Positions 539-5,332 of a DNA stretch of 36,136 nucleotides are shown here, one piece after another. The stretch's first letter is position 1. Each line of letters opens with the position of its first letter. The DNA is from Bacillus sp. (in: firmicutes) (GTDB lineage: Bacteria > Bacillota > Clostridia > Lachnospirales > Lachnospiraceae): assembly GCA_023666125.1 (NCBI GenBank), contig JAMPCN010000021.1:1-36136 (forward strand). Direction: 5' to 3'. The translations under genes and the position numbers were made by a program. Below the pieces are notes generated by a model. It saw only the letters and a list, made by a program, of their open reading frames with translations. It was not told the DNA's origin and did no database searches.

Positions 539-560
539 TAAGGTGAAAGGAGATTTTATC

Positions 561-3191
561 ATGGAGCAGTATACGGTGACAGGAATGAGCTGTGCGGCAT
601 GCAGCACGAGAGTGGAAAAGGCGGTATCGGGCGTAAACGGCGTTACCTCCTGTTCGGTCAGCCTGTTGACAAATTCCATGGGCGTTGAAGGTACGGCTTC
701 TGCGGAAGCGATTATTGCGGCCGTGGAGGCGGCGGGATACGGCGCGTCCAAAAAGGGAGCGGGCGTATCGAAAGCGAGAGAGAACGCGCATGGTACGCCG
801 GACTATGAGGATATGCTGGCGGATAAAGAGACGCCGGTTTTGCAAAAAAGAATGATAATCTCTCTTTGTCTGCTTTTGCCGTTAATGTATTTTTCCATGG
901 GGCATATGATGTGGGGATGGCCGATTCCTGCGTTTTTTGAGGGCAATCATGTTGCTATGGGGCTTTTACAGTTACTATTGACAATAGCGATTATGCTGAT
1001 TAACCGAAAATTTTTCGTAAGCGGCGCAAAGAGCGTGATGCACGGAGCGCCCAACATGGATACGCTTGTCGCCATGGGGGCGGGAGCGTCTTTTATCTAT
1101 AGCGTCTATGCGCTGTTTGCGATGACGGATGCGCAGGTCAAAAATGATATGGCGGCGGTTATGGAGTATATGGATGAGTTTTACTTTGAGTCCGCCGCTA
1201 CGATACTGACTTTGATTACGGTAGGAAAAATGCTGGAGGCACGCTCGAAAGGAAAGACGACGGACGCACTAAAGGGTTTGATGAAACTGGCGCCGAAAAA
1301 AGCGACTCTCATAAGAGACGGTAAAGAAATCGAAGTAGATATCGCACAGGTAAAAAAAGATGACGAGTTTGTTGTCAGACCGGGTGAAAATATTCCGGTG
1401 GACGGGATTGTCATTGACGGAATAAGCGCGGTCAATGAGGCGGCGCTGACCGGAGAGAGCATTCCGGTTGACAAACAGGCGGGGGATAATGTTTCCGCCG
1501 CGACGTTAAACCAATCAGGATTTCTAAAATGCCGGGCAACAAGAGTGGGCGAGGATACGACCCTTTCCCAGATTATTCAGATGGTCAGCGACGCGGCGGC
1601 GACGAAAGCGCCGATAGCGAAAGTTGCCGATAAAGTCTCCGGTATTTTCGTACCAGCGGTGATTGCGATTGCCGTACTGACCGGCGCGGTGTGGCTGCTT
1701 GCGGGGGAAGGCTTTGCTTTTGCGCTGGGAAGAGCGATTTCCGTACTTGTCATAAGCTGTCCGTGCGCCCTTGGTCTGGCAACGCCCGTAGCTATCATGG
1801 TCGGAAACGGTATGGGAGCGAAAAACGGCATTATGTTTAAGACCGCGCAGTCTTTGGAACTGACCGGCAAAATGCAGATTGCGGCGTTAGATAAAACCGG
1901 AACCATTACAAGCGGCGAGCCGGAAGTGACGGATATCGCCCCGGCGGGCGGCTGTACGGAGGATAACCTGCTTGCGCTTGCCTGCGCGTTGGAGCAAAAG
2001 AGCGAACATCCGCTTGCTAAGGCGGTCTTGGAAATGGCGAAAGAAAAAGGCATAGCGGCTAAGGCGGCGGAAGATTTTGCAGCTGTACCGGGCAAAGGGC
2101 TGACCGGTTTTCTGGATAAAAAAGAACTGGCGGGCGGCAACCTGGAATTTATACAGACTAAGGCAAAAGTGCCGCAGGAGATGATTGACCGAGCCGGACA
2201 ATTTGCGCAGGATGGAAAAACGCCGCTGTTTTTCAGTAGGGCAAACGTTTTTCAGGGGATTATCGCCGTGGCGGATGTGATAAAGAAAGACAGTGCAAGA
2301 GCCGTGGCGGAATTACAGAATATGGGTATCAAAGTGGTTATGCTGACCGGCGACAATGAAAGGACGGCGCGCGCTATCGGCGAGCAGGCGGGCGTAGATG
2401 AAGTCATCGCGGGCGTTCTGCCGGACGGTAAGGAAAGCGTGATTCGCGATTTGCAAAAAAGGGGCGCGGTTGTGATGGTCGGAGACGGTATTAACGACGC
2501 CCCGGCTCTGACGCGGGCGGATATCGGAATCGCCATCGGCGCGGGAACGGATATCGCGATAGACGCGGCGGATATTGTGTTGATGAAAAGCAGATTAAGC
2601 GATGTGCCTGCCGCTATCCGTTTAAGCAGGGCGACGCTTAAAAATATTCACGAAAACCTGTTTTGGGCGTTTTTCTATAACGTTATCGGGATTCCCCTCG
2701 CCGCAGGTTTGTGGTATCCTATATTGGGATGGAAGTTAAATCCGATGTTTGCGGCGGCGGCCATGAGCCTGTCCAGTTTCTGCGTTGTCAGTAACGCACT
2801 GCGCTTAAACCTGTTTCGTATGTACAGCACGAAGCACGACAGGAAAATGAAACGGAAGTTACACAAAAAAGACGGTCAGCAAACAGAAAATCAACAAATA
2901 GAATGTCAAAAAATAGAAAAACGACAAACAGGCAATCAACCAATAGAAAATCAATTAATAAAAGAAAAGGAGAGTAAGAACATGGAAAAAACAATGGAAA
3001 TCAAAGGAATGATGTGCGGACACTGTGAGGCGGCGGTCAAAAAGGCGTTAGAGGAACTGCCGGAAGTAAAAGAAGCTCTGGTCAGCCATGAGAAAGGAAA
3101 CGCGCTTGTTACGCTGCAGTCGGAAGTTGCGGACGACGTCCTGAAAAAAACCGTGGAGGCGCTGGATTACGAGGTCGTTTCCATCGCGTAG
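561..3191 (+). CDS. copA: CopA, copper-exporting P1B-type ATPase with N- and C-terminal metal-binding domains
   Basis: A Cu(I)-exporting membrane ATPase of about 876 residues. An N-terminal heavy-metal domain carries GMSCAAC (Cys11 and Cys14). Membrane helices follow, with the transport motif Cys400-Pro-Cys402 in CPCALGLATP. The phosphorylated Asp444 sits in DKTGTIT and the hinge is GDGINDAP (641-648). These are hallmarks of P1B-1 copper pumps. After the last helix a Gln/Glu-rich linker of six 5-residue repeats (773-802) joins a second heavy-metal domain with GMMCGHC (from about residue 808). ATG 561 is chosen over the in-frame GTG 543 because AAAGGAGA lies just upstream. The gene directly follows csoR and should be induced by copper. 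The C-terminal domain resembles a free CopZ chaperone and has its own translation signals (separate entry). Confidence 0.95.
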   Translation: MEQYTVTGMSCAACSTRVEKAVSGVNGVTSCSVSLLTNSMGVEGTASAEAIIAAVEAAGYGASKKGAGVSKARENAHGTPDYEDMLADKETPVLQKRMIISLCLLLPLMYFSMGHMMWGWPIPAFFEGNHVAMGLLQLLLTIAIMLINRKFFVSGAKSVMHGAPNMDTLVAMGAGASFIYSVYALFAMTDAQVKNDMAAVMEYMDEFYFESAATILTLITVGKMLEARSKGKTTDALKGLMKLAPKKATLIRDGKEIEVDIAQVKKDDEFVVRPGENIPVDGIVIDGISAVNEAALTGESIPVDKQAGDNVSAATLNQSGFLKCRATRVGEDTTLSQIIQMVSDAAATKAPIAKVADKVSGIFVPAVIAIAVLTGAVWLLAGEGFAFALGRAISVLVISCPCALGLATPVAIMVGNGMGAKNGIMFKTAQSLELTGKMQIAALDKTGTITSGEPEVTDIAPAGGCTEDNLLALACALEQKSEHPLAKAVLEMAKEKGIAAKAAEDFAAVPGKGLTGFLDKKELAGGNLEFIQTKAKVPQEMIDRAGQFAQDGKTPLFFSRANVFQGIIAVADVIKKDSARAVAELQNMGIKVVMLTGDNERTARAIGEQAGVDEVIAGVLPDGKESVIRDLQKRGAVVMVGDGINDAPALTRADIGIAIGAGTDIAIDAADIVLMKSRLSDVPAAIRLSRATLKNIHENLFWAFFYNVIGIPLAAGLWYPILGWKLNPMFAAAAMSLSSFCVVSNALRLNLFRMYSTKHDRKMKRKLHKKDGQQTENQQIECQKIEKRQTGNQPIENQLIKEKESKNMEKTMEIKGMMCGHCEAAVKKALEELPEVKEALVSHEKGNALVTLQSEVADDVLKKTVEALDYEVVSIA
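2877..2966 (+). repeat. Six tandem 15-bp repeats coding for the CopA linker
   Basis: Six consecutive 15-base units share the pattern CAACAAATAGAAAAT with substitutions, in frame with copA. They encode the pentapeptides QQTEN, QQIEC, QKIEK, RQTGN, QPIEN and QLIKE. The array lies exactly between the end of the ATPase and the ribosome binding site of the internal CopZ start. Such in-frame arrays can expand or contract by slippage without breaking the frame. Confidence 0.85.
2982..3191 (+). CDS. Possible separately translated CopZ-like copper chaperone (internal start in copA)
   Basis: Inside copA and in the same frame, AAGGAGAG (2967-2974) lies 7 bases before ATG 2982. This arrangement is as good as any real gene start in the window. 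Translation there would give a free protein of 69 residues, MEKTMEIKGMMCGHC onward, which is a complete heavy-metal-associated domain of normal CopZ size. The known family role is carrying Cu(I) to CopA or CsoR. Two readings are possible: the signal still makes free chaperone alongside the fusion, or it is a relic of a separate copZ that became fused to copA. The sequence cannot tell which. Some other bacteria are known to make a chaperone from copA by frameshifting, so dual output would not be without parallel. Confidence 0.55.
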   Translation: MEKTMEIKGMMCGHCEAAVKKALEELPEVKEALVSHEKGNALVTLQSEVADDVLKKTVEALDYEVVSIA

Positions 3192-3201
3192 GAGTTTGTA
3201 A

Positions 3202-3232
3202 TTGTTTATGATGCGCGCTCATATATTATAAT
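3202..3232 (+). promoter_or_regulatory. Weak promoter candidate for the structured element
   Basis: TATAAT at 3227-3232 is a perfect -10, with TTGTTT (3202-3207) 19 bp upstream as a poor, widely spaced -35. If used, a transcript from about 3239 would include the structured element and read into the protease gene. A second TATAAT at 3453-3458 has no usable -35. Confidence 0.3.
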
Positions 3233-3279
3233 TAGTAATAGGCGATTGCGAAACGCTGAAGTAACTATTGTTTAGGGGG

Positions 3280-3421
3280 AACATATACGCTCCATAAGCG
3301 GGTACTGTGAGACCGTAGACCACGGAAAGTGGTCTTGTGTTTCACATGCGGTACTTTCGCATGTTATGCACCGTTACGGTTGAACTGTAGCGAAAGCGAC
3401 CCGTGTTGGAGCGTATATGTT
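3280..3421 (+). ncRNA. Putative structured RNA element of unknown class
   Basis: AACATATACGCTCCA (3280-3294) is perfectly complementary to 3407-3421, giving a 15-bp closing stem. Inside are CGGGT/ACCCG (3299-3303/3399-3403), GTGAGAC/GTTTCAC (3307-3313/3339-3345), GACCAC/GTGGTC with a GGAAA loop (3318-3323/3329-3334), ATGCG/CGCAT (3346-3350/3358-3362), ACCG/CGGT (3370-3373/3377-3380) and a GAAA-capped hairpin near 3390-3397. The nested, non-crossing set looks like a multibranched RNA or leader. It is not recognised as T-box, c-di-GMP riboswitch, SRP RNA, RNase P or tmRNA. A palindromic mobile relic is possible, but no flanking target duplication is seen. The strand is assumed from the flanking genes. 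Confidence 0.5.
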
Positions 3422-3434
3422 ACTCTATATAAAG

Positions 3435-3444
3435 GTGTTTCACA
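3435..3444 (+). repeat. Second copy of GTGTTTCACA outside the closing stem
   Basis: GTGTTTCACA occurs at 3337-3346 and again at 3435-3444. Both can pair with TGTGAGAC at 3306-3313 (8 bp, one G-U). The two pairings exclude each other, so the leader could switch between two folds. That is inference from sequence alone. Confidence 0.4.
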
Positions 3445-3478
3445 GTCGTCTATATAATAAGTATAACATGGAGCGCGT

Positions 3479-5332
3479 ATGGATTCTCAAAAGTTTGAAA
3501 ATATCTTAAATCTCGCCTTAGATACGCCGGAGTCGGAACGGGATAAATCGCTGGAACTGAATATCGGTTATGAGAGTAAGGACAATACCTGGGAGCTTAT
3601 CATAAAATATCATGGTGATTTGCGGCAGGGGATGTCCTTTCTTTTTCGTTCACCGCAGGGCAGCTTGATACAAATAGAAGAACTGATAGCGGGGTATGCG
3701 ATTTTAACCGTACCCGAATCTTTGATGGAGGCGTTATCCGGGGTAGAGGAAATCGAATATATCGAGAAGCCCAAACGTCTTTTTTTTAATACCTTACAGG
3801 GAAAACTCGCCTCCTGTATCATACCGGGCAGTCCGCTTTTTTTATCGCTGCGTGGACAGGATATTCTGGTGGGGGTCATTGACTCCGGCATCGCCTGGCG
3901 AAACCGTGATTTTTGTAATGCGGACGGAACGAGCAGAATCCTGTATCTGTGGGACCAGACGCTGCAAGCGGAACGGGTTTGGGAGCGTATTGCCGAAAGA
4001 GGGCTGCTTTCGGAGGAAAGAAGAGATGAATATAAGCCGCCGGATGGGTTTTTCAGCGGCGTGGAATTTACGAGAGAGCAAATAAACGAAGCGTTAAGCG
4101 CTTCCTCGGAGATGGAAGGAGACCTGTTAGTGCCAAGCGTGGATACATCAGGGCATGGAACGGCTGTTGCCGGGATAGCGGCGGGAAATGGAGCTTCCTC
4201 AGACGGTGTATATGCGGGTGTTGCGCCACAGAGCGGTCTTTTGATAGTCAAGCTGGGAACGCCAAGAGAAGGTTCTTTCCCAAGGACAACCGAACTGATG
4301 CGGGCGCTCACCTATGTTGTCAGAAAATCCCTGACACTGCAAAAGCCGTTAGCGGTTAATTTAAGTTTTGGAAATACTTACGGCGCGCATAACGGCACTT
4401 CCCTGCTGGAGCGATTTATTGATAATATCTCGGAAATCGGCAGAAATGTTATCTGTGTGGGAAGCGGCAACGAAGGCGCCTCCGGCGGACATACCGGAGG
4501 AAGCGTGGGGATAATGGCAGACGCCGTCAGTATAGAACTGGTTGTCGGAAACTATGAACGAGGACTAAACGTACAGCTTTGGAAAGATTATGCCGACCGT
4601 TACAGGGTGTATCTGCGTTCTCCTGCCGGGGAAGAGTTTAGCGTAGATACGGACAGGGCGGGAAAGCAGACATATACGTTAGAGCAGACAAGGATTCTTT
4701 TATATAATGGGGAACCGGCGCCATATTTGACAAGTCAGGAAATCTATTTTGATTTTTTACCCATGGAAAACCAAAGTTATGTAAACAATGGCGTCTGGAC
4801 TTTTACATTGGAGCCGGTTAGGACGGTGACGGGAAACTATACATTTTATCTGCCGTCGGAAACCGTGCGTTCCGCGCAGACCCGTTTTGTCAGACCGACG
4901 CCGGATGTGACGCTGACAATTCCTTCCACGGCCTCGAAAGTGATAACTGTGGGCGCGTACCAGACCGGCATAGAGGCATATGCGGATTTTTCCGGGCGCG
5001 GTTATTTATATCAGGACAGACTTGGCAGCCGCACGGAGGGAGCTTTTATCAAACCCGATATCGTTGCGCCCGGCGTAGGCATTCTGGCGCCTGCCAGAGA
5101 AGGAGGATACGTTCAGGTTTCCGGCACTTCTTTTGCCACTCCGTTTGTCACGGGAGCGGCGGCGCTTCTGATGCAGTGGGGCATCGTAAACGGAAACGAT
5201 CCGTATCTGTACGGCGAAAAGGTAAAAGCATATCTGCGAAAGGGCGCGCAGCCGATACGGGGAGAGAGCGTATACCCGAATGAGCGGGTGGGGTATGGGG
5301 CGCTTTGTGTGGAGGGGAGCCTGCCGGGATAG
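3479..5332 (+). CDS. Csp-like subtilisin-family (S8) serine protease
   Basis: A 617-residue subtilase. The catalytic triad is intact: Asp135 in GVIDSG, His226 in SGHGTAVAG and Ser551 in GTSFATP, with the oxyanion Asn331 in GSGNEG. An N-terminal stretch of roughly 110 residues resembles a propeptide. About 220 residues separate the Asn and Ser motifs, consistent with the beta-rich (jelly-roll) insert of clostridial Csp proteases. No signal peptide or membrane helix is seen, so it is probably cytoplasmic or handled in the developing spore, as Csp proteins are. Csp proteases activate cortex lysis during germination in clostridia, but this subfamily also has many uncharacterised copies in Lachnospiraceae, so the role is unproven. 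GGAG (3470-3473) precedes ATG 3479. That ribosome binding site lies next to or within GAGCGCGTAT (3471-3480), which can pair with ATGCGCGCTC at 3211-3220. Confidence 0.85.
   Translation: MDSQKFENILNLALDTPESERDKSLELNIGYESKDNTWELIIKYHGDLRQGMSFLFRSPQGSLIQIEELIAGYAILTVPESLMEALSGVEEIEYIEKPKRLFFNTLQGKLASCIIPGSPLFLSLRGQDILVGVIDSGIAWRNRDFCNADGTSRILYLWDQTLQAERVWERIAERGLLSEERRDEYKPPDGFFSGVEFTREQINEALSASSEMEGDLLVPSVDTSGHGTAVAGIAAGNGASSDGVYAGVAPQSGLLIVKLGTPREGSFPRTTELMRALTYVVRKSLTLQKPLAVNLSFGNTYGAHNGTSLLERFIDNISEIGRNVICVGSGNEGASGGHTGGSVGIMADAVSIELVVGNYERGLNVQLWKDYADRYRVYLRSPAGEEFSVDTDRAGKQTYTLEQTRILLYNGEPAPYLTSQEIYFDFLPMENQSYVNNGVWTFTLEPVRTVTGNYTFYLPSETVRSAQTRFVRPTPDVTLTIPSTASKVITVGAYQTGIEAYADFSGRGYLYQDRLGSRTEGAFIKPDIVAPGVGILAPAREGGYVQVSGTSFATPFVTGAAALLMQWGIVNGNDPYLYGEKVKAYLRKGAQPIRGESVYPNERVGYGALCVEGSLPG

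Follow-up and report, generated by a model that had tools for sequence, protein, structure and literature searches.

The 287-bp gap at 3192-3478 of the window (the whole 36,136-nt stretch of DNA analysed) separates an ATPase ORF, which ends at 3191, from a protease ORF, which starts at 3479. A sequence-only reading, which had given the size of this gap correctly, placed in it a large structured RNA-like element with a possible two-state switch, and suggested that it could be a leader or riboswitch. By domain matches, the upstream ORF (543-3191) carries heavy-metal ATPase domains and the downstream ORF (3479-5332) subtilase and CspB-prodomain regions; subtilases with the CspB prodomain are linked to spore germination proteases. 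The ATPase, of the copper type, continues past a Gln/Asn-rich stretch into a C-terminal region that resembles another heavy-metal-associated domain, giving two HMA stretches in all, as though it were fused to a CopZ-like chaperone; a CsoR-type repressor ORF (PF02583) lies upstream of it at 167-538.

Architecture of the element copy in the window

The closing stem described earlier was recovered exactly: its 15-nt arms, at 3280-3294 and 3407-3421 of the plus strand, are 100% complementary and stand 112 nt apart, with smaller stems between them. The fold of this region has an energy of −78.6 kcal/mol, where shuffled sequences average −50.5 (z = −6.93; none of 200 shuffles was as stable), and the minus strand is the less stable one (−63.8 kcal/mol, z = −5.87). 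The bounds of 3280-3444 proposed for the element have to be widened: in an alignment of 18 copies from the same genome, conservation runs out to a second inverted repeat, which sets the window's unit at 3239-3452 on the plus strand, 214 bp when bounded by its terminal repeats. Among 19 copies in this genome the unit measures 196-214 bp in 17, including C93 and C28b, the ends of which are poorly recognised; the exceptions are the degenerate C43 (160 bp) and C118b (205 bp, its first bounds, 283 bp, having been wrong).

The left outer terminal inverted repeat, TAGGCGATTGCGAAACGC at 3239-3256 on the plus strand, is like the ends of IS1182-like insertion sequences; its right counterpart, at 3435-3452 on the minus strand, reads GTGTTTCACAGTCGTCTA on the plus strand. 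Just outside lie the two 12-bp copies of a target-site duplication, now imperfect, TATAATTAGTAA at 3227-3238 and TATAATAAGTAT at 3453-3464. The structured core and inner stem, at 3275-3427 on the plus strand, match covariance model R1 with 105 bits, the window copy being itself one of the 18 copies that built R1. Within the closing stem, a second stem pairs GCGGGT (3298-3303) with ACCCGT (3399-3404), and the consensus fold places the main hairpin at 3344-3364, with a conserved 7-nt loop mostly of the GUNNUNU type, and a small hairpin, GC[GAAA]GC with a GNRA loop, at 3390-3397, all on the plus strand. A 19-nt plus-strand insertion at 3321-3339, of ambiguous placement, is found in the window copy only among the 18 aligned copies, and also in the orthologue of the window copy in the related genome G205. 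The copy at L092 1307-1455 carries an additional hairpin on its main loop, comparable in kind to this insertion. The ORF list contains no ORF of at least 60 aa within 3239-3452, and hence no transposase ORF in the element.

The repeat on which the proposed switch was built, GTGTTTCACA, does occur twice, at 3337-3346 and 3435-3444; the switch itself did not survive comparison between copies. The first GTGTTTCACA lies at the edge of the ambiguously placed insertion, and its best ungapped match to the cores of 18 other copies (17 from alignment A1, plus C118b) has 4-5 mismatches. The second matches the right ends of the same 18 copies with 1-4 mismatches, because it is part of the right terminal repeat. 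In the G205 orthologue of the window copy the first is present and the second absent. Since the pair is not kept across copies, a switch is not a property of the family, and we rejected it.

The reading had also recognised no known RNA class, and no Rfam 15 covariance model matches the element, even at E 5. Comparison of 12 loci from other genomes with Rfam 15 found no family for the element either and returned two matches only: a tRNA that neighbours the L086 element, and mir-71 overlapping the L319 element (E 0.77; its 23.9 bits fall short of the gathering score, which is 50).

Dispersal, genomic context and mobility

In the window's own genome, blastn found 18 copies on 16 contigs (E ≤ 1.6e-10); a covariance model with those 18 as its basis found 21 at E < 3e-11. 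At least 55 of 200 sampled genomes of the bacterial family carry the element (E ≤ 1e-4), a lower bound in that at most 16 candidates were scored per genome under stricter filters. In a sample of the class, at least 6 of 291 genomes match, again a lower bound with at most 11 candidates scored per genome, and all six belong to the same family. Eight genomes hold 50, 43, 33, 19, 19, 18, 17 and 5 copies, respectively (E ≤ 1e-5). A pattern scan of named contigs yielded at least 120 stretches, and among the 80 listed, 58 titles name Lachnospiraceae or a member genus, for which count we took Coprococcus, Butyrivibrio, Anaerobium, Blautia, Mediterraneibacter, Acetatifactor, Lachnoclostridium and Anaerocolumna to belong to Lachnospiraceae. 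The remaining listed titles are Clostridiales, Clostridium, bacterium and similar, and six Gastranaerophilales or Muribaculum MAGs. For the copies on these six MAG-labelled contigs (L150, L174, L179, L212, L220 and L222), mis-binning would be a likelier explanation than transfer. The family is thus a dispersed repeat of about 200 bases, found across a large bacterial family of the gut, and by this distribution the window itself probably comes from Lachnospiraceae. Two queries gave no blastn match in the phage collection and none in the plasmid collection, and a phage or plasmid element was rejected on that basis; one pattern found two stretches in viral contigs.

To the gene next to it, the window copy is placed as a leader would be, in sense orientation and 26 bp from the protease start codon. 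When 104 copies were compared with flanking ORFs picked by script rather than annotation, 99 could be classified (5 edge copies could not), as 41 −−, 26 ++, 18 +− and 14 −+, with 13 of the 104 cores overlapping a picked ORF; such near-random orientation argues against a cis leader, which would be oriented. At the protease locus itself, the same insertion is present in G205, the element is missing from G238 and G234, and an independent insertion in G216 has the opposite orientation. A cis-acting leader or riboswitch of the subtilase gene, working through two alternative pairings, is therefore very improbable indeed, considering also that dispersed copies lie by other genes in either orientation, that the repeat of the switch is copy-specific and that Rfam returned no match; as a conserved mechanism it is refuted.

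Neighbouring copies less than 1 kb apart are arranged head to head, with their 5′ sides facing, in 12 cases and in tandem in 3, with no case of tail to tail. The 12 are partly non-independent, G106 supplying three of them and G008 and the own genome two each; a looser pattern in other contigs gave 5 head to head, 4 tandem and 0 tail to tail. Head-to-head neighbours (at L019, L020, L071, L081, L091, L099, L109, L114, L119, L121, L124 and L132) often share one gap between co-oriented ORFs, again as picked by script, and divergent gene promoters were not supported as the cause of the arrangement, since several pairs lie between co-oriented ORFs. Tandem arrays in the same orientation were seen with three copies spaced 187 bp and four spaced 164 bp (L104 816-1323; G110 C59:125117-125742). 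No promoter enrichment was found at the 5′ side of 111 copies, and replication-strand bias is slight, at 45 G-rich to 67 C-rich (p 0.047), or 43 to 67 (p 0.028) where the skew is strong.

The ends of the element tie it to a class of insertion sequence. From the 18-copy alignment, the outer inverted repeat was defined as (TA)GGTRATTGCGAAACGCC...GGCGTTTCGCAATYACC(TA), and a pattern search with it led to two insertion sequences in the own genome, the transposases of which (490 and 491 aa) are 74% identical; both end in the element's outer repeat, and a separate 12-14 bp duplication lies on the flanks of each. The two transposases match DUF772 and score 77.8 and 64.4 bits against NCBIfam NF033551 (IS1182), below its cut-off of 270, and the partner is therefore called IS1182-like only. 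At nine transposase loci in eight genomes, including the own genome, at least one outer-repeat end with 0-1 mismatch was found in all nine, and the second end was recognised at six. The core of the element was present in none of 19 transposase loci, by which an element residing inside an autonomous insertion sequence was rejected. The element thus has terminal repeats shared with insertion sequences, a target duplication and no internal transposase ORF, as a MITE does. Much shorter elements with the same outer repeats and no core were seen at L025 1-160 and near L026 1986; these are possibly simple deletion MITEs of the IS1182-like insertion sequence.

Insertion has left its mark on the flanks. 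In 15 of the 19 own-genome copies (C93, C43, C118b and C28b were left out, their ends being poorly recognised or mis-bounded), the mean similarity between left and right flank was reached by 0 of 500 permutations. The filled site in G216 has GATGAGTCAA(T) twice where the empty site in G238 has it once, giving a duplication of 10-11 bp. The sequence-only reading had named many dispersed copies with target duplications as the mark of a mobile palindrome, and both were found here. The 21 copies, the ends shared with insertion sequences and the pair of filled and empty sites indicate a mobile element and not a leader of a single gene; for the own genus this reading is well supported, and mobility there is recent. 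From the shared ends, an IS1182-like transposase may be what moves the element.

For the family as a whole, the MITE reading is less certain. The element occurs in 6 of 20 family genomes with the transposase and in 49 of 180 without it; conversely, 6 of 20 element-bearing genomes match the transposase profile, with a full-length match in one. No transposase of the IS1182-like type was found in G110 (50 copies) or G188 (43 copies), and G025 (33 copies) has a fragment. An IS1182-like transposase was therefore rejected as the general partner, its presence not tracking the element across genomes. In G025, G008, G106 and G110 the outer repeats are locus-specific or not recognised. Outer sequences pair better within copies than between copies in G025, G008 and a mixed set, and not detectably so in G106 (p 0.45), these sets holding 10, 8, 7 and 18 copies and the inner arms in G106 being badly framed (own mean 13.4, minimum 3).

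Conservation of the fold and turnover of its stems

RNAalifold on the 18 own-genome copies gave 50 pairs, 17 of them with two-sided changes. Across 85 distinct rows from many genomes (alignment A2), 95.8% of cells pair, compared with 62.6% after shuffling and at most 43.5% after sliding, and two-sided changes occur in 49 of the 50 pairs; because A2 was fitted to the R1 structure, the pairing and covariation figures lean towards that structure. Folds of single sequences recover a mean of 0.88 (minimum 0.56) of the model pairs. The large structured element thus stands, with an abundance of the compensatory stem changes that the sequence-only reading had proposed as its check. One antisense match in A2 (L132 842-966, minus strand) was kept in the covariation and wobble counts and dropped from the strand-stability count. 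On the plus strand, L132 843-967 reads as a palindrome with few imperfections in which the GNRA arm is missing, the kind of product expected of template switching, and the model matches both strands there.

Several features distinguish the strands. In 78 of 84 copies the plus strand gives the more stable fold, and G.T outnumbers A.C by 222 to 59 cells (145 to 58 when columns with G.T as the commonest pair are left out). The loop of the small hairpin is of the GNRA type in 79 of the 83 rows with letters there. GNRA is a rule of RNA loops; stable GAAA mini-hairpins occur in DNA also, so that these loops could equally be those of a DNA fold. Together with the core constraint described below for G265 and G419, the strand asymmetry and the loop rules suggest a function as RNA.

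Different parts of the fold evolve in different ways. In G025 (10 copies), self-pairing of the inner stem reaches a mean of 19.6 of 22 positions (minimum 17), and pairing with the stems of other copies a mean of 5.6 (maximum 10), while the cores are alike. Resident copies could be followed between G265 and G419, two genomes of one genus, in which 8 of the 9 examined G265 copies lie at the same loci. At these 8 loci, changed sites amount to 29/626 in the core, 72/431 in the stem, 145/901 in the adjacent outer sequence and 666/8458 in the further flanks, much of which is ORF (p 4e-13 for core against outer sequence, p 0.002 for core against flanks); 19 of the 29 core changes fall in a single locus, H7/K6. 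Stem changes number 11-24 of about 54 sites at H2, H3, H7 and H8 and 1-5 at the other four loci. At three of the four fast-stem loci, the stem of each orthologue pairs with itself better than across orthologues, or nearly equally in one direction; at H8/K5 the stem of one orthologue pairs poorly (9/27 vs 18).

The own genus behaves otherwise. At 7 loci orthologous between it and G205, 40/960 core sites and 206/3752 flank sites have changed (Fisher p 0.10); an eighth pair suggested by flanks, L294/L060, proved to be different insertions. At 300 pair sites from 6 of these loci (C118b, not in A1, was left out), 6 have changed on both sides and 10 on one side with pairing retained; pairing is confined to one species at 4 and absent from both at 1. 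By these sequence comparisons, copies of the own genus change at what looks close to a neutral rate, and those of G265/G419 look constrained.

Competing explanations and relation to known repeats

We consider it probable that the element is a non-autonomous mobile element of about 200-215 bp with IS1182-like ends and an RNA-level domain. In the own genus it would most likely be moved in trans by an IS1182-like transposase recognising the shared ends (TA)GGTRATTGCGAAAC, insertion leaving a target duplication of about 10-14 bp. The GNRA loops and the wobble asymmetry suggest that the fold is used as RNA, within whatever transcript crosses the insertion; selection on this RNA domain would keep the core, and copies could outlast mobility with the core still constrained. 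Our best guess is that a host protein or RNA would recognise the branched core, the long stem acting as a clamp only. Several results weaken this explanation: the transposase does not track the element, own-genus cores diverge much as their flanks do, the 5′ side has no promoter signal, orientation to ORFs is near random and the stem of one H8/K5 orthologue pairs poorly.

The second of these results would also agree with a fold that has no function as RNA, the stems being kept by template switching (quasi-palindrome correction) and the core being needed as DNA by active master copies. Template switching in replication, which can repair stems, has been described (PMC8794818) and could produce some of the two-sided changes; gene conversion may likewise transfer both halves of such a change from one copy to another, and both possibilities weaken the RNA reading. 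The palindrome in L132, matched on both strands without its GNRA arm, fits this account, as do the stems that are fast at 4 of the 8 G265/G419 loci with self-pairing kept by both orthologues at 3. It predicts no strand preference, however, contrary to the excess of G.T over A.C and the greater stability of the plus strand, and it leaves the GNRA loops, the 7-nt loop and the constraint on resident G265/G419 cores unaccounted for; we judge it unlikely. The same resident copies and their constrained cores could instead be those of a domesticated multi-copy small RNA with a host function, its mobility being ancestral and residual outside some genera. The many copies in G110 and G188 without an IS1182-like transposase, and in G025 with a fragment only, would agree with this, and so would the absence of tail-to-tail neighbours (12:0 against head to head, and 5:0 in other contigs). 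Against it stand the near-random orientation to ORFs, the lack of a promoter signal, the lack of conservation in the sequence just outside the stem at the G265/G419 loci, and the recent mobility and little constrained resident cores of the own genus, and we regard it as possible but doubtful. Only tentatively would we go on to suppose a family-wide multi-copy RNA, once transposon cargo and now a host RNA, in which a partner recognises the core, the self-complementary clamp is specific to each copy and the head-to-head pair is the working unit.

What stands out is that a structured family with up to 50 copies per genome (in the eight counted) and near-complete covariation has no match in Rfam 15. 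A search of titles and opening lines in the open-licence literature found no such repeat in Lachnospiraceae and, on the basis of that literature and Rfam 15, the family appears to be undescribed. It offers a test case of how mobile DNA seeds RNA structures, and of RNA selection versus template-switch mutation as the cause of compensatory changes, the latter because young mobile and long-resident copies can be compared within one family.

Among the kinds compared by description, the closest are the bcr repeats found in the Bacillus cereus group. In the available text of two papers (PMC3446304, PMC6542083), bcr1-bcr18 are intergenic repeats of 100-400 bp, of which bcr1-bcr3 are MITE-like in structure and function, and a strain has on average 39 copies of bcr1; transcription was found for about half of the copies overall, bcr10 and bcr18 are predicted to be RNA elements and show conserved secondary structure, and mobility is linked to a TTTAT motif, with no IS ends named in that text. 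As those passages present them, the bcr repeats are dispersed, partly MITE-like, partly transcribed and in some members conserved in RNA structure; the present element differs in its IS1182-like ends, its 10-14 bp duplication, its hosts and its long stem, which can be locus-specific in sequence. With MITEs of IS1182-like insertion sequences it shares the lack of a transposase ORF, the shared terminal repeats, the target duplication and a high copy number; unlike them, it has a conserved branched RNA-like core, which other genomes retain although such ends are not recognised in them or the transposase is missing. Like IStrons, as the accessible part of PMC4227781 describes them, it would couple a DNA transposon to an RNA domain, but it is small and non-autonomous and has no group I intron match in Rfam. 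Finally, it resembles REPINs and REPs in being a dispersed palindromic repeat of bacterial genomes (available portions of PMC3116915 and PMC3733652), and differs by description from REPs, which measure 20-40 bp in the portion of PMC3733652 available, in its length of about 200 bp and its branched core.
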